64,000 nucleotides of DNA from Candidatus Kutchimonas denitrificans (GTDB taxonomy: Bacteria; Gemmatimonadota; Gemmatimonadetes; Palauibacterales; KS3-K002), in the NCBI GenBank assembly GCA_011774835.1, contig JAACAK010000113.1, positions 69,029-133,028 of the forward strand. The letters are read 5' to 3'. The position numbers and the translations under genes were made by a program. Positions 14,378 through 29,815 of this stretch are shown piece after piece (the first letter of the stretch is position 1; the number at the start of each line of letters is the position of its first letter). The notes under the pieces were generated by a model. The model saw only the letters and a list, made by a program, of their open reading frames with translations, ran no database searches and was not told where the DNA came from.

Positions 14378-15103
14378 GGCTTACTCTCCTTGCTGAATCG
14401 GAGCGGCGCCGTCGAACCTCCACGGCCCCGACGCATCGAATGTTGCGGAAACGATTGGATTAAGGATTACAGGTCTATCTGCCAGAGACCGCTCTGGACA
14501 TCGTGCCCGAAGAAGACCGTCTAGAATTGTGTGTGGTGTACAAACCGCCGAAACTTAACATGATCGAGGCGATCGAGCGAATGCCCGGCGTGGAACGCGA
14601 CCGCCTTTATCATTGGCGCGCCGCTGGCCGATTTCGGAGCCATCGGCAACAACGGAGGCGCTGCACGACCAGTAAACGGCTGCCTCACCTTACTTCCGTT
14701 CGCTGTGCCCGGAACGGAGGAAACCCAATAGAGAATCGAGCATCGGCGGAGGCCTCCTCGGGCCGACGCGGTAGGCCTGGGACGGCTCCGGGTTGGTTTG
14801 CCTAAGGTCGCCTCGGGCCGCATATTTGCACGCAGGACGCCGGGGGTTGCCGATCGGTCCCGGCTTGTCGGCCCCACTAGCCATCGAACGGAGCAGCACG
14901 AACCCGGTGTCTGCTGACCCATGGTTGCCTGACAGTTCATGGATATGCGTAACGGCGCGGTTGACGCAGAAGGTCGGCCAGAGTCGAGTTGCTGCGCTAG
15001 GCGACGCCGTCTTGTAGCTCCGATGCTTCCGTTGGGCAGAGATGGTGAGGCCCCGGGGTACGGGCCGCCCGGAAGAGGATGTTCTATTCGCGCGGGGGGT
15101 AAG

Positions 15104-16315
15104 ATGAAAGTCGCGAACTCGTTCGTTGGAATGGGAAGAGGGTTCAGCACGTTCGCCTTTTCCCTCTTGGTTATCGCCGGTCTCGTCATGCCCGTTTCAC
15201 TCACCGCGCAGGAGCGTGATGTCACCCAGAACCCGCTGGCCGGTTCGCAGGTCTTTGGATCGAAGGGGTGCGTGAAGTGCCACGCGATCAATGGGTTGGG
15301 GGCCGAGATCGGCCCTGACCTGGGGCGGATCTCGCAGCGGCATTCGTTCTACGAGCTGGCGGCGACGATGTGGAACCATCTGCCGGCGATGGGCGCGGCG
15401 ATGCGGGAGTATGGGATCGAGCGGCCGGAACTGACGGCGGAGGAGGCGGGCGACCTGATCGCGTTCCTGTTCACCCTTGACTATTTCGACCCGCCCGGTG
15501 ATGTGGAGAGAGGCAAGCGGCTGTTCGTGGAGAAGAAGTGCGTCGTCTGCCACCAGGTCGGTACCTACGGCGGCGTCGTCGGACCCAGCCTCGACCATCT
15601 CAGCCAGTACGGCTCCCCGATCCTCGTGGCGGCGGCGATGTGGAACCACGGTCCGGCGATGGCAGAGATGATGGAGGAGCGGGGGATCGACCGTCCCACC
15701 TTCAGCGGAACCGAGCTCAACGATCTCATCGCTTATCTCGAGTCGGTGGGCCCGGCCCCGCTGGAAGGTCCGCTCTACGTCCTGCCGGGCGCGGCCGAGG
15801 AGGGGCGGGTGGTGTTTGTGGAGAAGAACTGCATAGAGTGTCACTCGGTGCAGGGTGTGGGAGGAAGGGTAGGACCGGACCTGGCGAAGCGGAGCTATCA
15901 GTGGGGGCTCACCGAATTCGCTGCCGCGATGTGGAACAAAGCCCCCGACATGATGCAGGTGATGCGCCAGCGAGACATCGATGTCCCGCAGCTGGGCGCG
16001 GGCGAGATGGCGGACCTGGTGGCTTACCTGTACTCGGTCCAGTACTTCGCCGAATCCGGGGATGCCGAAGAAGGGCGCGTGGCCCTGCGCACCCGGGGAT
16101 GCCTGGCCTGTCATTCTCTGGGCGGCCGGGGCGCCGGGGAGACGTCCGATCTGCAGGGCAACTTCCAGATGGAATCCTCGGCTGAGGTGATCGCCACGCT
16201 CTGGAACCATGCGACGCTGATGGAGGGTGAGGGCGCTGAGCCGTGGCCGATTTTGACCGCTAAGGACATCGCGGACATCTCGGCGTTCATGCAGAAGAAC
16301 GCGGAAGATCGATGA
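15104..16315 (+). CDS. Tetraheme protein of four tandem class I-like cytochrome c domains
   Basis: Signal peptide; CVKCH, CVVCH, CIECH and CLACH each followed by an MWNHxPxM-like repeat. Confidence 0.88.
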   Translation: MKVANSFVGMGRGFSTFAFSLLVIAGLVMPVSLTAQERDVTQNPLAGSQVFGSKGCVKCHAINGLGAEIGPDLGRISQRHSFYELAATMWNHLPAMGAAMREYGIERPELTAEEAGDLIAFLFTLDYFDPPGDVERGKRLFVEKKCVVCHQVGTYGGVVGPSLDHLSQYGSPILVAAAMWNHGPAMAEMMEERGIDRPTFSGTELNDLIAYLESVGPAPLEGPLYVLPGAAEEGRVVFVEKNCIECHSVQGVGGRVGPDLAKRSYQWGLTEFAAAMWNKAPDMMQVMRQRDIDVPQLGAGEMADLVAYLYSVQYFAESGDAEEGRVALRTRGCLACHSLGGRGAGETSDLQGNFQMESSAEVIATLWNHATLMEGEGAEPWPILTAKDIADISAFMQKNAEDR

Positions 16316-17619
16316 TGATGACGATGGGAAAACTGCTTCGCTGCACACCCGCCCTGCTCGCCGGATTCCTGTTGGCCCCAAAAGCAACGGCTCAGGAGCC
16401 CGAGAGCAGCTGCGTGACCTGCCACGCCGCGTTCGGTGATGAGCGTCTGTCCGGGCCCGTCGAGAGCTACCCGAACGATGTCCACGCTGCCCAGGGGTTC
16501 GACTGCGTGGCTTGCCACGGCGGTGATGCGACGGTGGCGGGGATGGGCGCGATGGACCCGGCGGCCGGATACCTGGGCGTGCCCGAAGGCGAGGACGTGC
16601 TGTCGGTCTGTGGGCGTTGCCACTCGAGCGCGCAGTTCATGCGCCGCTACGATCCGTCGCTGCGTGTGGACCAGGTGGCCGAGTACCGGACCTCGGTCCA
16701 CGGCCAGCGACTGCTTCAGCAGGGAGACGATCGCGTGGCCACCTGCTCCAGCTGCCATCCGGCACACGCGATCAAACCGCCCAGCGATCCGAACTCGAGC
16801 GTTCACCCGCTCAACGTCGCGGCGACCTGTGCGGACTGCCACGCCAATCCCGAGTACATGTCGCCCTATCCCATACCCACCGACCAGCACGAGAAGTACC
16901 TGGAGAGCATCCACTGGGAGAAGCTGTCGGTGGCCCGCGACCTGTCGGCGCCGACCTGCAACGATTGTCACGGCAACCACGGGGCGGCGCCGCCCGGGGT
17001 CTCTTGGGTCGGCAACGTCTGCGGTCAGTGTCACTCGGTCATGGCGGAGCGATTCAACCAGAGCTTCCACTCACGCATCTTCGCAATGCTCGGCAACCCC
17101 GGCTGCGCGACATGCCACAACAACCACGAGATCAAGCTCGCGGATATCGAGATGCTGGGTGTGGATGAGGGCTCGGTCTGCGGTCGCTGTCATTCGGCGG
17201 AGAGCCGAGGCGGTATAGTGGCGACCCGCATGAGAACGCTGATCGATTCGCTCTCCTTGGCGCGCGAGCGGGCCGATTCGATTCTCGAGCGCGCCGAGAA
17301 CGCAGGCATGGAGGTCAGCCAGGCCCAGTTCGACCTGAACGGTGCGACCACGGCCCTGGTCAGTGCCCGAACCGCCGTCCACTCCTTCGACGTGGAAGGG
17401 GTCCGTGAAGAGGTCGAGTCGGGACTGGAGGTTGCGGCGCAGGCCTGGGAGCGCGGTCAGGAGGCGATGGACGACCTGAGGTTCCGTCGGACCGGCCTGG
17501 CGATATCGGTGGGGATCATCGTGCTGCTGATCATCGGGCTGGTGCTCAAGATCAGGCAGCTCGAGCCGGCCGGAGCAGGGCCGTCGCGCAAGAGTGCTCC
17601 AGGAGGGGAGGCACGATGA
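16312..17619 (+). CDS. Nine-heme c-type cytochrome with C-terminal TM anchor
   Basis: Nine CXXCH motifs (CVTCH, CVACH, CGRCH, CSSCH, CADCH, CNDCH, CGQCH, CATCH, CGRCH), signal peptide, TM near C-terminus. Confidence 0.9.
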   Translation: MMMTMGKLLRCTPALLAGFLLAPKATAQEPESSCVTCHAAFGDERLSGPVESYPNDVHAAQGFDCVACHGGDATVAGMGAMDPAAGYLGVPEGEDVLSVCGRCHSSAQFMRRYDPSLRVDQVAEYRTSVHGQRLLQQGDDRVATCSSCHPAHAIKPPSDPNSSVHPLNVAATCADCHANPEYMSPYPIPTDQHEKYLESIHWEKLSVARDLSAPTCNDCHGNHGAAPPGVSWVGNVCGQCHSVMAERFNQSFHSRIFAMLGNPGCATCHNNHEIKLADIEMLGVDEGSVCGRCHSAESRGGIVATRMRTLIDSLSLARERADSILERAENAGMEVSQAQFDLNGATTALVSARTAVHSFDVEGVREEVESGLEVAAQAWERGQEAMDDLRFRRTGLAISVGIIVLLIIGLVLKIRQLEPAGAGPSRKSAPGGEAR

Positions 17620-18071
17620 TGGAGAGGGGCGGCAGGAACGAACAAACGCGTCGAGGCTTCGTCAACTGGATACTGGGCACGGGCGTCGGCGGCCTGCTGC
17701 TGGCCGTGCTCTATCCCGTCGGCCGTTATCTCGTGCCGCCGGCGGCGGGCGAGTCGGCGGCGGCGTCGGTCACGCTGGATATCACGCCGGCCGAGGTCAC
17801 GCCGAATTCGGGTCATATCTTCAAGTTCGGCAGCCGACCGGCGATCCTGATCCGCACGCCCAGCGGGGAGCTGCGGGCGTTTTCGGCCGCCTGCACGCAC
17901 CTCGGCTGCATCGTCCAGTACCGCGAAGACATCGGCCACATCTGGTGTGCCTGTCACAACGGACACTTCGATCTCAACGGCCGAAACATACAGGGTCCGC
18001 CGCCCCGGCCGCTCGATTCGTTCGTCGTCAACGTGCGCGGCGACGAGATCGTCGTCAGCAAGACGAGTTGA
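17616..18071 (+). CDS. Rieske [2Fe-2S] protein of bc-type complex (module A)
   Basis: N-terminal TM anchor; CTHLGC and CACHNGH cluster-binding boxes. Confidence 0.93.
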   Translation: MMERGGRNEQTRRGFVNWILGTGVGGLLLAVLYPVGRYLVPPAAGESAAASVTLDITPAEVTPNSGHIFKFGSRPAILIRTPSGELRAFSAACTHLGCIVQYREDIGHIWCACHNGHFDLNGRNIQGPPPRPLDSFVVNVRGDEIVVSKTS

Positions 18072-18074
18072 GCG

Positions 18075-19172
18075 ATGAGCGACATCAAAAAGCGGCTCGG
18101 GGAGGTGTGGGGCTGGCTCGACGATCGCCTGGGGCTGTCAAGCTGGGGCGAGCTTGCACGCAAGAAGGATGTGCCGTTACACAAGCACACCGTCTGGTAC
18201 TATCTGGGCGGCATGACGCTGTTCCTGTTCTTGATTCAGGTCGCCACCGGGATTCTGCTTCTTTTCTACTACCGTCCCAGCGCCGAGGACGCCTACGAGT
18301 CGATCCAGTTCCTGATGGCGGAGGTGGAGTTCGGCTGGCTGATCCGCTCGATCCACGCCTGGGCGGCCAACCTGATGATCTTCACGGCGTTCCTCCACCT
18401 GTTCAGCGTCCTGTTGATGAAGGCGTATCGGGCGCCGCGGGAGATCACCTGGATCTCGGGCTTCATGCTCCTCGCGCTCGCCATGGGGTTCGGGTTCACC
18501 GGCTACCTGCTCCCCTGGAACGAGCTGGCGTACTTCGCCACCCGGGTCGGCACCGAGATCATGGGGGCGGTGCCTCTCGTGGGCAGCTTTTTGGGCCGGG
18601 TGCTCAAGGGCGGCGAGGACGTGTCGGGTGCGACCTTGACGCGCTTCTACGCGATCCACGTCGCGGTGTTGCCGATGATCACCGCGGCTCTGCTGGGCCT
18701 CCATCTCTATCTGGTTCAGAAGCACGGGATGAGTATTCCGCCCGAGGTGGAGCGCCGAGGCGGCGGCCGTCGCTCGATGAGCTTCGCCCCGAATTTCCTG
18801 CTCCGCGATCTGGTCGGCTGGCTCTCGGCGCTGGCGATCATCGCGGTCCTGGCGGCGTATTTCCCCGCCGAGCTGGGGGAGAAGGCGGATCCGTTCGCAC
18901 CGGCGCCGGCCGGAATCAAGCCGGAGTGGTACTTCATGTTCATGTTCCAGACGCTGAAGTACCTGCCGGCTCACATCCTGGGGATCGAAGGGGAGGCGCT
19001 GGGGATCATGGCGTTCATGGTCGGCGGCGCTTTGCTGATGATCGTCCCGTTCCTGGATCGACGTTCGGGCCGGAACCAGCCGAGCCCGTTGTTCACCTGG
19101 ATCGGAGTGGCGATCATCGTCTACATCATAGTGCTCACGATCCTGGGCTACGCGGCGAACCCCACGCAATAG
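18075..19172 (+). CDS. Cytochrome b of bc-type complex (module A)
   Basis: Heme-b histidine pairs spaced 14 and 15 residues (b6-type), GYLLPW, and intact PEWY Qo-site motif. Confidence 0.93.
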
Positions 19173-19259: not shown

Positions 19260-20486
19260 CTACCGCAGCGGCACCGCCCCGGTCACCGCACCGCTGTCGT
19301 CTTCCGCCCGTGGCAGCTTCGCTTCTGCCTCCGGCCACGGGGGCAGGATCTTCACCAGCACCCAGAGGATCACGAACGGCAAAATCAGGAGCGCAGCCGC
19401 CGCCAGCAGCCCCTCGACCCCAAAGAGCTCCAGCTTGTACACCGTCAGGCCGCGCAGGCTCTTCGAGAACAGCTGGCCGCCGATCACCACGTTCCAGCGG
19501 ATGCTGAAGATCCCGATCTGCACGAGTATGGCGGAGCCCAGGTAGATCAGCCGCTTCAGCTCGTCCGGTAGCTTCACGGCGCTTCGTTTGCTCAGCGCCG
19601 GTGCGGTGAGCCCCAGGGTGATCATCGGCAACAGCGTGCCGAGCGCGACCTGCAGTACGATCAGGCTGATGAACAGCCGGCTCTCGATCATCTGCGAAAG
19701 GATCTCGATCGACTCCTCGGACTCGTAGAGCCGGTGGATGAAGTCGAGCATCTCGAGGGAGAAGTCCACCACCATCGCGTAGAACAGAAAGGCGGCCAGC
19801 TTGTCGACGCATTTCATGTCGACCGGCTTCCAGCGCAGCATGGCGGAGACCATGTAGATGATCAGAACCAGTGCGATCCCCGAGACGATGGCCGAGAACA
19901 GGAACACGACCGGCATCAGCACGCTGCTCCACCACGGGTTCGCCTTGACCGAGCCGAAGATGAAGCCGACGTAGCCGTGGAGCAGGAAGGCGGACGGGAT
20001 GCCGATGATCGTGATCCAGCGGCCCATGCGCTCGTCGAAGCTCAGCGCCCGCGGCGAGAGGTCCGTGGCTCCCAGGGTGAGTGCATAATGGATCCACCGT
20101 GTCAGGCCTTTCTCCTGACGAGCCCACAGCACGAGGTCCTTGCGGTAGTCGAACCAGATCTCCAGCAGCAGCACCACCATCAGGTACCAGGCGTAGACGA
20201 AGCCGAACATCGCCATCGCCGACTGCCGGTTCGGCGTCAGGAAGATCTCGTACGAGCGGAGCGGGTGGCCGAGGTGAGCCAGGAGCGGCAGGGGCGCCAC
20301 GAGCAGGAACGCGAGCGCCGTGAGCAGGGCCAGCCGGTAGGTGGGCTGGACCTCCTTGACGTTGAACACGCGCTCGAGCGATGCGAGGATGAAGGCGCCC
20401 GCCACGAGACCGGTGACGTACGGATAAACGACGACCAGGATGCTCCAGTGGAGCTCGAACTCGTTGGGGTAGATGTACCCTTGCAT
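19260..20486 (-). CDS. NrfD/PsrC-like quinone-interacting membrane subunit
   Basis: About 10 TM segments; YVTGLVAGAFILASL, HLGHPLRSYEIF and SPRALSFDERMGRW typical of the NrfD family. Confidence 0.88.
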   Translation of the reverse strand: MQGYIYPNEFELHWSILVVVYPYVTGLVAGAFILASLERVFNVKEVQPTYRLALLTALAFLLVAPLPLLAHLGHPLRSYEIFLTPNRQSAMAMFGFVYAWYLMVVLLLEIWFDYRKDLVLWARQEKGLTRWIHYALTLGATDLSPRALSFDERMGRWITIIGIPSAFLLHGYVGFIFGSVKANPWWSSVLMPVVFLFSAIVSGIALVLIIYMVSAMLRWKPVDMKCVDKLAAFLFYAMVVDFSLEMLDFIHRLYESEESIEILSQMIESRLFISLIVLQVALGTLLPMITLGLTAPALSKRSAVKLPDELKRLIYLGSAILVQIGIFSIRWNVVIGGQLFSKSLRGLTVYKLELFGVEGLLAAAALLILPFVILWVLVKILPPWPEAEAKLPRAEDDSGAVTGAVPLR

Positions 20487-20489
20487 CGG

Positions 20490-21293
20490 CTACCTCACCT
20501 CGCCGTCGAGATTGGCGTAGTAGGCCTTGGGCTCCGTGTTCAGGTGCGGCTTGAGCACCTGGACTTCGTTGAATCGCATGAAGCGGGCTAGCGGCGTGGC
20601 CCGGCGCTCGACTTCGCCGAAGATGCGGGCGCCGGTCGGACAGACCTCGACGCAGGCCGGCACCAATCCCTCGACGATGCGGTGGTAGCAGAACGTGCAC
20701 TTCGCCGCGACGTGCTTTTCCGGGTCCAGCCAGCGGGCGCCGTACGGACAGGCCTGGATGCAGTAGCGGCAGCCGATGCAGTACTCGTCGTCGACCAGCA
20801 CCACGCCGTCCTCGGTCTTGAAGGTGGCGCCGACCGGGCAGACCTGAACGCAGGGCGGGTTGGCGCAGTGGTTGCACAGCTTCGGCACGAAGAAGCTTCT
20901 GCGTATGTCGCCCTCGGCCGTAGTCGGAGGAAATCCCTCCATGCCGCCGTTGGGACTGTCGACCTCGACCTCGCCGTCGGTTCGAATCAGGTAACGCTCG
21001 ACCCAGGTGTTGAAGAAGTAGGGCTCGTCGGGTACGTCGTTCTCGGTCCCGCAGGCGACCACGCACTGACCGCAGCCGATGCACTTGTCGACGTCGATGC
21101 CCATGGCGTAGAAGTGCTCGCTGGGGTCGTAGTCGTCGCCCTCGGACTCCTGCGCATTCAGCAGCGGCACGCGGACGACACCCAGGATGATCGGCGCCAG
21201 AAGGCTGCAAGCCTTGAGAAACTCGCGGCGGTCGACCTCTTGCGTCGGTCGGGTCGATTCTTCTCGCGCCGGGTCGCGCTCGCTCGGGTTCAT
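20490..21293 (-). CDS. Ferredoxin-like Fe-S subunit with four [4Fe-4S] motifs (NrfC/PsrB-like)
   Basis: CIGCGQCVVAC, CNHCANPPCVQVCPVGA, CIGCRYCIQACPYGA and CTFC...CVEVCPTGAR; N-terminal RREFLK Tat-like motif. ATG at 21293 chosen. Confidence 0.9.
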   Translation of the reverse strand: MNPSERDPAREESTRPTQEVDRREFLKACSLLAPIILGVVRVPLLNAQESEGDDYDPSEHFYAMGIDVDKCIGCGQCVVACGTENDVPDEPYFFNTWVERYLIRTDGEVEVDSPNGGMEGFPPTTAEGDIRRSFFVPKLCNHCANPPCVQVCPVGATFKTEDGVVLVDDEYCIGCRYCIQACPYGARWLDPEKHVAAKCTFCYHRIVEGLVPACVEVCPTGARIFGEVERRATPLARFMRFNEVQVLKPHLNTEPKAYYANLDGEVR

Positions 21294-22051
21294 GGGGTCT
21301 CCGGGTAGTGTGGGTAGTGACACTGCCAGCACACGTAGCGCGGGTTGTGCAGGCGCAGGTTTATCCTCGGAATGTGCGGCGGGCTGTCGGCATCCCGGGC
21401 ATGACATCCGCCGCAGAAGCTTCGCTCGGTCGGCTTCGTCGGACGGACCAGACGCGGCGTGACCTTGTGCTCCTCGGGCGCCTCGTGACACGTCGTGCAC
21501 TCCAGCCCCGCGTGATGCGAAACCGCCTTCTGGCGAGCGATCTGACCGTGGCAGGCGCTGCACTGGCCGGGGATGACCGGCGGCTCGGGCGCGTGCGGGT
21601 CGTGACAGTTCGAGCAGAAGGACATGGGATTGTGCCGCACCGGATCGATCTGCGGGAAGCCGGTGGGTCGCGAGGGCGAGTACTCATGACACCGCAGGCA
21701 GAACTCTCGCTCGCTGGGAATCGATGGCTTTATCTGAGCCGGATCGGATACGTGCGTCGCCGCCGGGCCGTGACAGGATTCGCAGCCAACCCCCTTATGG
21801 TTGCCCGCCAGCCGTTTCTGCATGATCTGGAAGTGGCAGAGCTGGCATGCCTGCTGACCGGCGTACTTCTTCTCGTGGGCGACGATCGTGTCGAGCGCCG
21901 CGGCCCGATAATGTCCGAGTTGCCCGAACGTGTCCGGAACCAGAAAGTACCGCGCCACGAGAAGTCCGATGATGGCGACGGCGAAGACAGCCACCAGTCG
22001 GGGGACTTGCTGGGGCACGCGGGTGCCCCGGAACGGATCGAATTTCGCCAT
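21290..22051 (-). CDS. Octaheme c-type cytochrome, N-terminally anchored
   Basis: Eight CXXCH motifs (CQLCH, CESCH, CLRCH, CSNCH, CSACH, CTTCH, CGGCH, CWQCH); N-terminal TM; overlaps Fe-S gene by 4 nt. Confidence 0.9.
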   Translation of the reverse strand: MAKFDPFRGTRVPQQVPRLVAVFAVAIIGLLVARYFLVPDTFGQLGHYRAAALDTIVAHEKKYAGQQACQLCHFQIMQKRLAGNHKGVGCESCHGPAATHVSDPAQIKPSIPSEREFCLRCHEYSPSRPTGFPQIDPVRHNPMSFCSNCHDPHAPEPPVIPGQCSACHGQIARQKAVSHHAGLECTTCHEAPEEHKVTPRLVRPTKPTERSFCGGCHARDADSPPHIPRINLRLHNPRYVCWQCHYPHYPETP

Positions 22052-22325: not shown

Positions 22326-24347
22326 CTACTCGCCCAGCGCGGGGATGTCCCGATGGCAGAGAACGCAGTTCGCCGGTGCGTTGTGCTCCACCATGTCGGC
22401 GTGGCAAACCAGACAAACCTCCCGGGTCCAGTTCTCGATCCAGGCCGCCCGATCCTGGTGGCAGATGGTGCACCCGTTGTGAGCCATCGGCGGGTGTTTG
22501 TCTCTCACGCCGCCGCGATGGCACGAGAGGCAGGAGTTGTCGGGCTGGTGGTGCAGCGTGTGACACATCTGGCAGCGGTCGGCGCTGACGCTCATGTCGG
22601 GCGACGAGTGGCAGAGTGAACAGTCGAGGCCCGCCTCGCGATGCGGGGTGTGGGGGAAGTCGGCCATGGCGGTGGCCACCGGCCGTGCCGGCGCGCCGGC
22701 GGGTCCCTCGTGACAGGCCGAGCAGTCGGCCTCCGCCGAGCGGTGGTGGCACGCGGTGCAGCTTGCGGTGCCGGTCAGAGTGGTTTCGCCGTGCTGGTCG
22801 AGCGGCGTGTGGCACGCGGTGCACTCGAGCCCGGCGCCCTGGACGTGGGGTGCGTGGTCGAACGAGACGCCGGCGAAGCGTCCCGCCTGGTCGCTGATCC
22901 CCACATGGCACTGCAGACAGACGTTGCGACCCACCGGCGGCCCCAGCGCCACCGCGGGGATGTCGTACGGGAGCTGTCCGGTCTGGACCGCGTCGCGGAC
23001 CAGCTCGAGCGAGGTGCGCAGCAGCTGGTCGGCGTAGGCGATGTTATGAGCACCCTTCCCGCGCTGAACGAAGTCGACGTTCTCGGCGGCGAGCCGGAGG
23101 AGACTGTCGGCGGTGGCGCGACCCGCGACCGGGGCGGAGCCGAGGGTGGCACGGGCCGAGCTGACAACCTGGTCCACCTGCTCTACCTTGCGCTCGATCT
23201 CTCGCTGCCAGGCTGGGAGGATGTTGGCGTAGCGAATTCCGTGACACGACATGCAGGTCGCCTCGCCCGCCTTCATGACCTCCTCGTGTCCGGGGATCTG
23301 TGTCGGGATGGCGTGACAACTCTGGCAGGAGACTCGAGCGAGGAACATGGAGCTCGGCATGTTCTCGGTGCCGTGGCCGCCCATCCCCGAGTACATCTGC
23401 CGCTGCTCATCGTGGACGCGCTGGTGACAGGCGGCGCAGTCCAGCTCGAACGTCTCGGCCAGTGAAACGACGCGATGCAGGATCGGAGTATGGCACTGGG
23501 TGCATTCGACGTTGTGCTCGGCGATGTGCACCCGGTGCACGAAGGTGGTGTTCTCGAATTGGTCGATCCGCTCCGGCTCGTTGTGGCAATTGAAACAACG
23601 TCGCTGTCCCGCCTCGCCCGTACCGCTGGTGACCGATTCGTGGCATCCCACGCACGATACCAGGTTCTCCACGTATTGCGGATGATCGACCACGAAGCCG
23701 GCCGGCGAGCGGAAGCGCGGCGGCGACTTGTGGCAGCCGACGCAGCCGGCGAGCGGCTGGCCGGGGGGCCGGTCCTTGAAGTGGCACAGGTAGCAGGTGA
23801 CCGCGGTGACACGCAGGTGCGCAGCACCGATTGACACCCCTTGGAAGACAAGGGACTCGCTTCCCTGTACGATCTGGGAGTGACAGCTGGTGCAGCGGAG
23901 CCGCTTTCCGCGCCGCAGCTCTCCCAGATGCTGAGAGTGGTCGAAGCGAATGCCCTCGTAGTTGACCTGGCCTTCCAGCTCGCGTTCGGTGTGGCATCCG
24001 GAGCGCAGGCAGGCGGCGTCCTCGATCTCGGCCCACGGCTTCGTCCCGTAGGCGCCGGTGACGTATTTGACGACCTGGTTGGCGGCCTGGAGCTTGCCCA
24101 TCGCCTCGGCCTTGATCCCCGGCGCGTAGTGGCAGCTGATGCACTTCACGTCGTTGTGGGACGACGTTTTCCAGGAATCGTAGTAGGGCTGCATGATATG
24201 ACAGTTAGTACAGAAGCTTGGTTGAGCGCTGTACTCGATGAACCCTACCGTGGTGACGGCGAGCAGGATCACCGCCAGGATAGCGACCTGGATCGTGATC
24301 TTGATCGGGCGCGAGAAACGATCGAGGAAACCGGTCAGGCGCTGCAT
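22326..24347 (-). CDS. Large multiheme c-type cytochrome with NapC/NirT-like N-terminus
   Basis: 21 CXXCH motifs plus one CX4CH (CLRSGCH); N-terminal TM followed by CTNCH...CISCH as in NapC/NirT. Confidence 0.92.
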   Translation of the reverse strand: MQRLTGFLDRFSRPIKITIQVAILAVILLAVTTVGFIEYSAQPSFCTNCHIMQPYYDSWKTSSHNDVKCISCHYAPGIKAEAMGKLQAANQVVKYVTGAYGTKPWAEIEDAACLRSGCHTERELEGQVNYEGIRFDHSQHLGELRRGKRLRCTSCHSQIVQGSESLVFQGVSIGAAHLRVTAVTCYLCHFKDRPPGQPLAGCVGCHKSPPRFRSPAGFVVDHPQYVENLVSCVGCHESVTSGTGEAGQRRCFNCHNEPERIDQFENTTFVHRVHIAEHNVECTQCHTPILHRVVSLAETFELDCAACHQRVHDEQRQMYSGMGGHGTENMPSSMFLARVSCQSCHAIPTQIPGHEEVMKAGEATCMSCHGIRYANILPAWQREIERKVEQVDQVVSSARATLGSAPVAGRATADSLLRLAAENVDFVQRGKGAHNIAYADQLLRTSLELVRDAVQTGQLPYDIPAVALGPPVGRNVCLQCHVGISDQAGRFAGVSFDHAPHVQGAGLECTACHTPLDQHGETTLTGTASCTACHHRSAEADCSACHEGPAGAPARPVATAMADFPHTPHREAGLDCSLCHSSPDMSVSADRCQMCHTLHHQPDNSCLSCHRGGVRDKHPPMAHNGCTICHQDRAAWIENWTREVCLVCHADMVEHNAPANCVLCHRDIPALGE

Positions 24348-24351
24348 GCCG

Positions 24352-25614
24352 CTACTGCCCCTCTGCCGTGGCGGACCTCTCGGACCCGCGCAGCTTGAAC
24401 CAGGCGAGCACGCCGGCGGAGAGAGCCAGGAACCAGACGGGCACGAGGATCAGCCTGTGCTCCCAGCGGTGCTCGGCCGCGACCTCGGCGGAGGAGCGAA
24501 TGTCGAGCGAGATCGAGGCGACCTCGCGCCGCAGGTCGTCGAGCGCGGTCAGGTCCAGGCTGTGCTGGGTCTGCGAGACCTGCATGAAGGCGGTCAGGGC
24601 GCTCTGGTATCGGAGACGCGCGTCGGACACGTCACGGCCGGCGCTTACGAGCTCGTCGATCGCTTCGGCGGCGCTGCGCAGTTCCTCGGCGGCGCGGGTG
24701 GCCTTCTCCTCGATCTCGATTCCGATGCCAGCGGCCTCGCTGCCCGCCTCGTGGCACTCGGTGCAGGTCTCGGCGATGCGGTCCGGGGGGATGACCTCGG
24801 TTCCATGGTTCGAGTGACAGGCCGTGCAGCCGGACAGCTTGGCGGCGCGGGCAGCGGTGCCGTGGGGGCCGACGTCGAACGCTTCGCGCACCCGCACGTG
24901 GCACTGGCCGCAGACGTTGGCGATCTGGGCGACCGCGGGCGGCAACGCGGAATGTGATCCGTGACAGCCGACGCAGGTCGGTGCGGCGAAGTTGTGCTTT
25001 TCGTAAAGGGCCACGCCGTGCGCGCTCGATCGGTAGGTGTCGAACTGGTCGGTGGGCAGACCATAACCCGCCATGAGCGACTCGTCCTCGTGACAGGTGG
25101 CGCAGGTGCCCGCGATGTTGGTCGGGTAGACGTTGCTGCGAGCGTCGGTCGGCCGCAGGATCGTATGCGCGTCGTGGCAGTCGGTGCAGGTGGGCGCGTT
25201 CAGGTCGCCGCGATCGAGGAGCAGCATGCCATGCCGGCTCGTCCGATATTCGGCCAGCTCGCCGGCCGGCAGCCCGTACTGGCGCATCTGGTCGGGATCG
25301 GCATGGCAGTCGGTGCAAAGCTCGACCGTCTGCAGCTTGTCGGGCGAGCCGATGTAGTCGACTGCCCTGTGGGCGCTCTCCACCTCGAAGCCCCGCGGGT
25401 CACCGCCGTGGCAATCCTCGCAATGGATGCCGCGATCGGAATGGACACCGAGCCGGAAGGCGCGGCGCTTGTCGATGTGGCAGACGACGCAGCTGTAGTC
25501 CCGCTCGATCTCTAACTCACGCTGCTGCGCGTCGGTGGTCTGCGCCGTTACCCACCGGGGGTTGGCGCCGGCCATCAGCAGCAGGCCGGGGATCAGGGTC
25601 AACTTGAAGTTCAA
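24352..25614 (-). CDS. Nine-heme c-type cytochrome, paralog of the 16312 gene (module B)
   Basis: Nine CXXCH motifs and C-terminal TM; aligns with the 16312 product (YRTSxHG, APTCxxCHGxH, NVCGQCH). TTG start at 25614 overlaps the upstream stop (TTGA). Confidence 0.85.
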   Translation of the reverse strand: MNFKLTLIPGLLLMAGANPRWVTAQTTDAQQRELEIERDYSCVVCHIDKRRAFRLGVHSDRGIHCEDCHGGDPRGFEVESAHRAVDYIGSPDKLQTVELCTDCHADPDQMRQYGLPAGELAEYRTSRHGMLLLDRGDLNAPTCTDCHDAHTILRPTDARSNVYPTNIAGTCATCHEDESLMAGYGLPTDQFDTYRSSAHGVALYEKHNFAAPTCVGCHGSHSALPPAVAQIANVCGQCHVRVREAFDVGPHGTAARAAKLSGCTACHSNHGTEVIPPDRIAETCTECHEAGSEAAGIGIEIEEKATRAAEELRSAAEAIDELVSAGRDVSDARLRYQSALTAFMQVSQTQHSLDLTALDDLRREVASISLDIRSSAEVAAEHRWEHRLILVPVWFLALSAGVLAWFKLRGSERSATAEGQ

Positions 25615-26870
25615 GGCCCGCCCTCTCCTTCGTCGCCTTGCGGCGCGTCCTCGGTTTCCGGTGGGGCGGCCGGTCCCGGCTCCTCTGTGACCGACTCGAT
25701 CCCGCTCCCGGGGCGCAGCTGAGTGCCGGGTGGAAGCGACCGCAGTTGTCTCCCCGCCAGCCAGGCGATCAGGAATCCGCCGAAGAAGACGACGCCGAGG
25801 ATCAGGATCACCGGCCGGCGTTTTAGGCGCCGCTCCGGCCGTCGATCGAAGAGCGGCAGCAGCGCCATGCTGAGTCCCAACACTGTGAAGATCGTGAATC
25901 CCCATACCCCCAGATATCGGATTAGTGCCAGGGATACGTCGACCACGATCCAGGTCGAGACCAGCTCCTCGGGCAGCATGAACGGGTCGGCCCGGTCGCC
26001 GGTGGGGCGCGGGAAGAGCGCCGCCAGGCTGATCGCCACGGCGAGCACGAGCACGCCGACGATGAACGATCGCAGCAGGTGGGTGGGGTAGAACCGGACC
26101 CCGTCACCGGCCGTGGGAGGGCCGTCGGTGGGCGGTGCGATCCCGTGCCGGCGCACCAGGGAGAAGTGGAACAGCAGCAGGGCCAGCGCCATCCACGGAA
26201 GTATGATCACGTGCACCGCGAAAAACCGGCTCAAGGTGGCGCCGGAGACGTTGACGTCGCCGCGCAGCACGTCGGCAACGATGGCGAGAATCGGGATCCG
26301 CGACACCACGTCGAGCACTTCGGTCACGGTCCAGTAAGCCCACTGGTCCCAGGGGAGCAGGTAACCCGTTGCGCCGAAAGCGAGTACGACCAGGAGCAGC
26401 AGCAAACCGACAAGCCAGTTGGTCTCGCGGGGGGGCTTGTAAGTACCGGTGAAGAAGACCCGGGCCATGTGCGCGAGGAGCGCCACGACGATCAGGTTCG
26501 CCGACCAGACGTGGAGGTCACGAACCAGCCAGCCCATCGGCACGTCGGTAACGATGTACTGGATGCTCGGGTAGGCCTCCTGGACCGAAGGCCGGTAATA
26601 GAAGGACAGCAGGACCCCGGTGACGATCAGGACGATGAAGAGCAGGTAGGTGATGCCCCCCAGCGCGTGGCGCCAGCCCACGTACGACGGCAACCGCCGG
26701 GCCAGAGACTTCCGCAGCGACTGGTCGATCGGCAGGCGGCGATCGATCGGTCCGTAGATGAGTCCGAGGAACCGGGCGATGCCCAGCAGCCCGGGGTCGG
26801 TGCTGGCTTTGATGTCTTCCCAGAGCTGGGTCAACCAGCTGAATCGCGGCTTCTTCCTGGAGTCTCTCAC
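25611..26870 (-). CDS. Cytochrome b-like subunit lacking PEWY (module B)
   Basis: Heme-b His pairs at spacings 14 and 15 retained, GYLLPW retained; PEWY position is TWIV in a gapless alignment anchored on ADPF and KYL/RYL. Confidence 0.92.
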   Translation of the reverse strand: MRDSRKKPRFSWLTQLWEDIKASTDPGLLGIARFLGLIYGPIDRRLPIDQSLRKSLARRLPSYVGWRHALGGITYLLFIVLIVTGVLLSFYYRPSVQEAYPSIQYIVTDVPMGWLVRDLHVWSANLIVVALLAHMARVFFTGTYKPPRETNWLVGLLLLLVVLAFGATGYLLPWDQWAYWTVTEVLDVVSRIPILAIVADVLRGDVNVSGATLSRFFAVHVIILPWMALALLLFHFSLVRRHGIAPPTDGPPTAGDGVRFYPTHLLRSFIVGVLVLAVAISLAALFPRPTGDRADPFMLPEELVSTWIVVDVSLALIRYLGVWGFTIFTVLGLSMALLPLFDRRPERRLKRRPVILILGVVFFGGFLIAWLAGRQLRSLPPGTQLRPGSGIESVTEEPGPAAPPETEDAPQGDEGEGGP

Positions 26871-27319
26871 CTTACCTCATCCGATACGTAGACGACCCCA
26901 TTGCGCACCGAGACCGCGTAGCGGGTGAGTGATTGGGTCGACAGGCCGGCCACGACATCGCCGCGCAAATCGTACTCCGCGTAGCCGCAGGGCGAAAAGA
27001 CCCGCAGGCTCTCCTGGTCCCACTGCAGCAGGCAGCCGTCGACGGGCGACACACCTTCCAAGGCGAAGTAGCGCGTCGAGTCCGGCCGGATCACCAGAAT
27101 GATCCGTTCGCCCCAGGAGCGGTTGCGGGTCGCACCCACCGGAAAATTGGACTCGCGCTCTACCCGGATCACCGGCTGCAACTCCGGGATGGCGAGGCGC
27201 TCGGAAGGGGCGACATACAGCGCGGCCGCCAGCGCCGTCAGGGTGATGATCAGAAGAAGCACGCCGCCGAGCAGAAGCTCGGTGAACCCCGGCCGCCTGG
27301 TCGTTCGCTCTCTCACCAT
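26867..27319 (-). CDS. Degenerate Rieske-fold protein without [2Fe-2S] ligands (module B)
   Basis: Gapless alignment with the module A Rieske: CTHLGC to SPVDGC, CACH to SPCG; N-terminal TM; sits upstream of and overlaps cytochrome b by 4 nt, the usual Rieske position. Confidence 0.82.
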   Translation of the reverse strand: MVRERTTRRPGFTELLLGGVLLLIITLTALAAALYVAPSERLAIPELQPVIRVERESNFPVGATRNRSWGERIILVIRPDSTRYFALEGVSPVDGCLLQWDQESLRVFSPCGYAEYDLRGDVVAGLSTQSLTRYAVSVRNGVVYVSDEVR

Positions 27320-28819: not shown

Positions 28820-29815
28820 ATGGGTTTTCTGGAAAAGATCTTTGGCCCTTCACGGCCCGATAGCGTACAGGATTCCTCTGCTGTAATGGCGAGCGAGGAT
28901 CTGGAGCGCATCGAGCGTGAACTAAAGAAGATCGGCCACGGCTACGAGGCTGCCCGTCTGCTGAACCGGGCCGGGGACCTTTACCTGGTGAAGGGCGACC
29001 GCCAGAAAGCATTGCAGCGGTACGGCGACGCCATCGACGCCTACCTGAAGTCGAGCGAGTACGACAACGCCATGGCGGTTTGCCGTAAGATCATCCGGGT
29101 CGTGCCGGAGGTGATCCGCACGCGCCGGACCCTGGCGTGGCTGTGCCTGGGGAAGGGCTTCCTCGAGATCGCGCGGGAACACATCGACGCGTATGTGAAG
29201 GCGTCGATCGAGGCGGAGTTGGAGGAGCTCGCCGTTCAGCACCTACTCCTCATGTCGCAGTACGTCGATCGCTCCGATTTCCGCCGTTTCCTAGGTGACA
29301 AGCTCGCCGAGCTCGGCGACGAGGAAAGCGCCGAGCGCGTGCGCAAAGGCGGAGCCCGCGAGAATGTCCGGGCCGCCGGCTGGACACCCGTCGTCTTCGC
29401 CGCAATGCTGACTCCGGAGGATCTCCGCCGGGCGGCGGACAAAGGGGTCGAGATCAAGGCGCCGACCGATGATCTGGCCGGCGACGAGCTGGACGTGGAG
29501 GGGTTCGATTCCCTCCTGTTCGACCCCGAGATCGCCGGGCCCGCCAAGGGGCGAGAGAGCGCCCCTGAGGAGTCGGAGGATGCGGACGAAGGGGAAGAGG
29601 CGGAGCAGGAGCGCGAAAAGGAAACCATGAAGGCGCAGGGGAAGGAGAAAGAGGAGGAAGAAGAAGAGGAGGAGGAAGAAGAAGAGGAGGAGACAGACGA
29701 CGACGAGGACGAGAGCGAGGAGGAAGAGGAAGAGAAGAAAGAAGAAGACGAGGGTGACGTAGACGACGAGGACGAAGAAGGCGAGAACGACGAAGAAGAC
29801 GAGAAGGAGAAATAA
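28820..29815 (+). CDS. TPR-like repeat protein with very acidic low-complexity C-terminal tail
   Basis: N-terminal helical repeats (YEAARLLNRAGDLYLVKGDRQKALQRYGDAIDAYLKS); ~80-residue Glu/Asp tail. Confidence 0.8.
   Translation: MGFLEKIFGPSRPDSVQDSSAVMASEDLERIERELKKIGHGYEAARLLNRAGDLYLVKGDRQKALQRYGDAIDAYLKSSEYDNAMAVCRKIIRVVPEVIRTRRTLAWLCLGKGFLEIAREHIDAYVKASIEAELEELAVQHLLLMSQYVDRSDFRRFLGDKLAELGDEESAERVRKGGARENVRAAGWTPVVFAAMLTPEDLRRAADKGVEIKAPTDDLAGDELDVEGFDSLLFDPEIAGPAKGRESAPEESEDADEGEEAEQEREKETMKAQGKEKEEEEEEEEEEEEEETDDDEDESEEEEEEKKEEDEGDVDDEDEEGENDEEDEKEK

Follow-up and report, generated by a model that had tools for sequence, protein, structure and literature searches.

What can a cytochrome b do once its Qo motif has been erased, and once the Rieske protein encoded next to it has lost its cluster ligands? 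This question is raised by a gene, here B2, in the window, the whole stretch of 64,000 nucleotides from Candidatus Kutchimonas denitrificans that was analysed. B2 is a single minus-strand open reading frame with a GTG start encoding 419 amino acids. Its designation as a cytochrome b homolog in a preliminary description of the locus held up, with a Pfam match to PF00033 (6.6e-49; 166.8 bits, cut-off 27.2) and a match to b6 in the PDB at 3e-68. Pfam gave no match of B2 to PF00032, the C-terminal domain with the Qo motif, whereas the cytochrome b of the adjacent module A matches both PF00033 and PF00032. Also as described, both histidine pairs (H120-H134, spacing 14; H220-H235, spacing 15) and GYLLPW at residues 169-174 are intact. 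With its PF00033 domain and four axial histidines, B2 belongs to the cytochrome bc homologous family. The genes of its module (module B, B1 to B7) and of module A are arranged as follows:

26867-27319, minus strand: B1, pseudo-Rieske protein with one transmembrane helix and a Rieske fold
25611-26870, minus strand: B2, cytochrome b homolog retaining all four heme histidines, with the Qo motif erased (S305-T306-W307-I308)
24352-25614, minus strand: B3, membrane-anchored nine-heme cytochrome c with a C-terminal transmembrane helix; TTG start
22326-24347, minus strand: B4, cytochrome c with about 22 hemes and an N-terminal, anchored NapC/NrfH-like domain (CxxCHxM)
21290-22051, minus strand: B5, eight-heme cytochrome c
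20490-21293, minus strand: B6, ferredoxin-type [4Fe-4S] subunit, TtrB/DsrO-like
19260-20486, minus strand: B7, NrfD-type membrane subunit
18075-19172, plus strand: canonical cytochrome b of module A with PEWY, used for comparison
17616-18071, plus strand: canonical Rieske protein of module A (CTHLGC ... CACHNGH)
16312-17619, plus strand: nine-heme cytochrome c of module A, paralog of B3
14939-16315, plus strand: module A cytochrome with four CxxCH motifs

In an alignment of module A and module B cytochromes b with about 60 relatives, W307 of B2 falls on the invariant tryptophan of PEWY with one gap before and one after it, so that PEWY corresponds to S305-T306-W307-I308. The preliminary description had read the replacement as TWIV from a gapless register; this register is off by one and was rejected in favour of STWI, but the motif is erased and its glutamate lost in either register. 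Among about 45 ortholog rows in which the region is complete, representing about 31 distinct loci, none keeps the motif glutamate or tyrosine, and no B2 row has a PEWY-type motif or even W-Y alone. The tryptophan is kept in nearly all rows and lost in the two most divergent ones. Some genomes were retrieved twice in this set; a reduced set of 32 rows leads to the same result, and all four axial histidines for hemes bL and bH are present in 32 of 32. Because no intact ortholog row keeps the glutamate and dN is low relative to dS (see below), chance and assembly error are excluded, and B2 stands as a cytochrome b that has lost the Qo motif while keeping its four heme histidines.

The two quinone pockets were compared in bovine cytochrome b numbering, with the reference sequence verified letter for letter against PDB 1be3. 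The 32 rows all keep H83, H97, H182, H196, G34, G48, G116, G130 and R80, and 31 keep R100. In the same rows E271 is replaced by T, S or L, P270 mostly by S, Y273 by V, I, F or L, F274 by V, P or L, and F128 mostly by A or G. The lists of residues lining the Qo and Qi pockets follow general knowledge of bc1 structures and were matched in part to PMC9162462. By column resampling, which treats columns as independent and ignores the kinship of rows, so that all P values are to be read accordingly, mean conservation of the Qo-lining residues drops from 0.90 in module A to 0.71 in module B (P=0.001); their conservation reaches significance in A (P=0.002) and fails to do so in B (P=0.72). For the Qi-lining residues the mean goes from 0.86 to 0.81 without a significant drop (P=0.61). 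Seven family-wide invariants have gone in B, every one of them on the P side or in mid-membrane. One of them is the proline between the ef helix and transmembrane helix F, and where these two meet, the AlphaFold2 model of B2 has one continuous helix, 308-341, next to a nine-residue deletion and within a predicted fold that is still that of bc1 cytochrome b. On the N side, R240, at the position of b6f Arg207, is invariant (32 of 32), and R267, H68 and H264 are kept at 91-97%. All canonical relatives examined have D or E at the equivalent of Qi Asp228; B has S, Q, L or others. The N-side pocket of B2 is kept as a putative quinone site, but a different one, since this aspartate has been lost.

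The partner subunit is altered at its own active centre. In B1 the four ligand positions C, H, C and H are replaced by S91, V93, S109 and G112, while the disulfide cysteines C96 and C111 are kept, as both are in every pseudo-Rieske row. The pattern is [S/A/G]xxDxC ... SPCx, compared with CTHxxC ... CxCH in Rieske proteins, and no pseudo-Rieske row has a [2Fe-2S] cysteine or histidine ligand in the aligned positions. Substitute cluster ligands were considered and rejected: the two former histidine positions vary, one former cysteine position is S, A or G, and the only invariant candidates left are the disulfide cysteines and one serine. AlphaFold2 predicts for B1 a Rieske fold with one transmembrane helix (pLDDT 86), and the PDB entry closest to this model, the Chlorobaculum Rieske domain 8hn2, is also the best profile match. 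The pseudo-Rieske gene precedes each B2 ortholog where the 5' flank is present and was found in 26 of 26 B2 genomes, adjoining B2 unless the assembly is broken. The count of pseudo-Rieske genomes is higher by one, as a 27th genome (G332) has the gene directly before the end of its contig at base 3918.

That description had also held the PEWY glutamate to be needed for quinol oxidation, which is too strict. E295 of Rhodobacter can be replaced by a non-protonable residue, with E295V active, and some organisms naturally have no protonable residue at this position (PMC10583091); an APWY paralog in Gemmatimonadota and Chloroflexota keeps an intact Rieske protein. Loss of the glutamate alone proves little. 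What carries weight is that two subunits have lost their sites together throughout the ortholog clade, and the argument against bifurcation rests on the whole pocket together with the ligand-free Rieske protein. Motif variation is known and glutamate mutants are functional (PMC10583091; PMC9162462), and B2 could accordingly belong to a standard quinol:cytochrome c reductase whose Qo motif has diverged, as in the APWY and PDWY complexes. We consider this very improbable, since APWY paralogs keep W-Y and a cluster-binding Rieske protein, whereas module B loses Pro, Glu, Tyr and F274 together and its partner is ligand-free. With no Rieske ligands and an eroded Qo pocket, the two-branch Q-cycle reaction should be impossible. 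Of the earlier claim that electrons cross the membrane without bifurcation, the structural side stands (two b-heme sites kept, Qo erased, pseudo-Rieske partner); the non-bifurcating function is what we infer from it.

Besides the window's own B2, 16 orthologs with 57-75% identity were found in 60 related genomes, and a scan of 85,000 GTDB species genomes gave 33 orthologous loci. Where a phylum is named these are all Gemmatimonadota (two records read 'uncultured bacterium'), and nearly all named source records are metagenome-assembled genomes. The same scan gave six more distant matches that still have APWY or PEWY; four are from Chloroflexota and two from Planctomycetota. B2 is present in at least 26 of 399 Gemmatimonadota genomes, a lower bound as the phylum scans scored the best few candidates per genome; scores are bimodal, with at least 467 bits in 25 genomes (plus a fragment in G036) versus at most 308 bits elsewhere. 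A plasmid collection gave only distant cytochrome b, with less than 60% identity. In a maximum likelihood tree, the 28 B2 rows form one clade with support 100/100. This clade is not sister to module A and groups weakly with APWY-type cytochromes (90/64); an origin of B2 as a recent duplicate of module A is unsupported.

Ortholog pairs show dN values of about 0.08-0.17 for B2 (n=8) and 0.06-0.12 for B1 (n=6), with dS from 0.6 to saturation in both, and B1 and B2 are under strong purifying selection. The loss of catalytic motifs in both subunits could be the mark of a decaying, non-functional duplicate, but this has next to no probability given the low dN/dS in these eight B2 and six B1 pairs, the invariant heme ligands and an operon kept in six family-level groups; a pseudogene is ruled out by dN/dS. 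It could also be argued that B2 and the pseudo-Rieske protein pair with module A in a heterodimer whose A half alone bifurcates while B offers an extra exit via bL-bL transfer, as bc complexes are dimers and modules A and B adjoin in several genomes. Yet a 95% complete genome (G169) yielded no bc-type cytochrome b besides B2, and a module A ortholog was not found in other B2 genomes, for example the single-contig G229, which disfavours an obligate A/B heterodimer. Module B moreover has its own nine-heme subunit, and B2 is not sister to A in the tree, making such pairing highly improbable.

B1-B4 form a tight operon, in which the B1 stop and the GTG start of B2 overlap in GTGA, the B2 stop and the TTG start of B3 in TTGA, and four bases separate B3 from B4. 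The order B1-B2-B3-B4 is the same in loci long enough to show it, a few being truncated or interrupted, and the operon is conserved across six family-level groups. B5 and the FeS/NrfD genes lie beside module A in some other genomes (L061, L065), or apart, and for this reason B1-B4 are taken as the core. The eight-heme/FeS/NrfD trio (19260-22051) possibly functions with module A instead of module B. A cytochrome c1 or f partner is absent from module B, which has the nine-heme and 22-heme cytochromes instead. B3 shares 34% identity with the nine-heme subunit of module A, with all nine CxxCH motifs in register, and judged by these alignments the two complexes share one plan. In the module A cytochrome at 14939-16315, the four CxxCH-bearing units of the single chain look alike, and a protein with a very long Glu/Asp-rich tail is encoded at 28820-29815 of the window.

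The N-terminal domain of B4 is NapC/NrfH-like (TIGR03153, 1.4e-15) with a conserved CxxCHxM and a conserved lysine, and could hold a P-side quinol site of its own. Quinol might then be oxidised on the P side without a Rieske protein, by this CymA-like domain or in a remodelled P-side pocket delivering to the B3 hemes, with the cytochrome b as a link to the N side; W307 and GYLLPW are indeed mostly kept in B2. However, the Qo-lining residues of B2 are no longer conserved, and a path from a P-side quinol site to an N-side quinone site would have a net driving force only if the c hemes also supplied or withdrew electrons. We regard this course as unlikely, if worth keeping in mind.

Our preferred reading, to which we give a probability of roughly 0.62, is that B1-B4 form a complex of the cytochrome bc type that has become a transmembrane electron conduit without bifurcation; this second copy of the bc complex would probably be a plain electron wire across the membrane. 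We also lean towards the broader proposal that a whole bc complex lost Qo and the [2Fe-2S] cluster in a coordinated way and so became a fixed, non-bifurcating, electrogenic quinone:multiheme-cytochrome conduit, a separate device in one bacterial phylum that sometimes stands beside a normal complex. From the observed sequences, conservation, operon and phylogeny, and from the predicted folds, we infer heme and quinone binding, Qo inactivity, route and direction as follows. The b subunit would keep hemes bL and bH and the N-side quinone pocket, the P-side Qo pocket would be remodelled by the loss of PEWY and fusion of the ef helix to transmembrane helix F, and the Rieske protein would persist, cluster-free, as a structural subunit only. 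Electrons would pass between N-side (mena)quinone, bH, bL, the nine B3 hemes, the 22 B4 hemes and periplasmic or outer-membrane carriers. Their direction is not readable from sequence. On the model of CbcL and CbcBA in Geobacter, the conduit may oxidise menaquinol and pass its electrons to extracellular acceptors of low potential; such acceptors would suit it because electron flow from N-side menaquinol to the P side costs proton-motive force. Alternatively, it may take up external electrons to reduce menaquinone and would in that case build proton-motive force; CbcBA has been proposed to run in reverse in some syntrophic bacteria (PMC10553843).

The genomic surroundings suggest a role in extracellular electron transfer. 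In other genomes module B is flanked by a nine-heme lipoprotein-like cytochrome, an 11-heme cytochrome, a b561-type cytochrome, a CbcL-like 19-heme/b561 fusion (a gene separate from B2) and beta-barrel-like proteins, with multiheme, CbcL-like and barrel-like flanks in many of them. In the window's own genome, a different contig encodes both the fusion (70% identity) and a homolog of the barrel protein (33%). The fusion, of about 950 amino acids with 19 hemes and a b561/FdnI-type membrane part, resembles an enlarged CbcL (L060:14862-17714; own genome, C10:101886-104636). The beta-barrel-like outer-membrane family lies beside multiheme cytochromes (L060:17736-19409, L070:19461-20909, L123:13260-14966) and is possibly the porin part of an electron conduit; its genes have no Pfam or PDB match above threshold, and an MtrB-type identity was dropped on the same grounds.

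Two other kinds of cytochrome b were observed. In Planctomycetota, a cytochrome b fused to a two-heme c domain (L090:9872-11878, L091:9908-11806) keeps PEWY and the bL histidines and has lost both bH ligands (to Y and I), mirroring module B. A Rieske gene was not seen beside the fusion. A second, distant Gemmatimonadota family without PEWY (FWPxLWxY; L112, L113 and L031 in G002, G037 and G043) has about 31-32% identity to B2 or the module A cytochrome b, and no Rieske motif was seen near its genes.

Module B is a real, conserved and unusual variant of the cytochrome bc family, and the open-access literature searched, with subscription journals mostly not covered, yielded no description of a bc complex in which both the Qo motif and the Rieske ligands are erased. 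If our reading is true, it would represent electron bifurcation knocked out by nature with the heme wire kept, a state otherwise approached by mutating bc1. Module B shows that Qo and the Rieske cluster can disappear together with selection still acting on both subunits. This makes testable what role a cluster-free Rieske subunit has, and how, with no Q cycle, electrons are transferred between quinone and multiheme cytochromes in cells near the energy limit.

Compared with known systems, module B resembles bc1 and b6f (PF00033 and PF00355) in its cytochrome b fold, its membrane-anchored Rieske-fold partner and its c-type cytochrome partner, with the 14/15 histidine spacing of b6f. Unlike them, it has an erased Qo motif, no Rieske ligands, and nine- and 22-heme cytochromes in place of c1 or f. 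Module A follows the same three-part plan, with a homologous nine-heme subunit whose hemes are in register with those of B3, but keeps PEWY and all four Rieske ligands. The anammox complexes Kuste4569-4574 and Kustd1480-1485 are likewise bc-type with multiheme c subunits (PMC12954380); they differ in having Rieske clusters of high potential and NAD(P) oxidoreductase subunits. ANME-2 Mco is similar in its proposed transfer from a membrane carrier to a multiheme conduit (PMC9012536), but combines a VhtC-type cytochrome b, from another family, with a 7-11-heme MHC. Geobacter CbcL and CbcBA wire a membrane b-type cytochrome to periplasmic multiheme c (PMC9129911; PMC10553843). The b domain of CbcL, linked to nine c hemes, has six helices and two hemes; B2 is by contrast a bc-family cytochrome b with seven helices and not of the Ni_hydr_CYTB/FdnI type (PF01292, 22.5 bits, below the cut-off of 30.1). 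The combination that characterises CbcL and CbcBA, a b-type di-heme membrane subunit with multiheme c, is present in module B.
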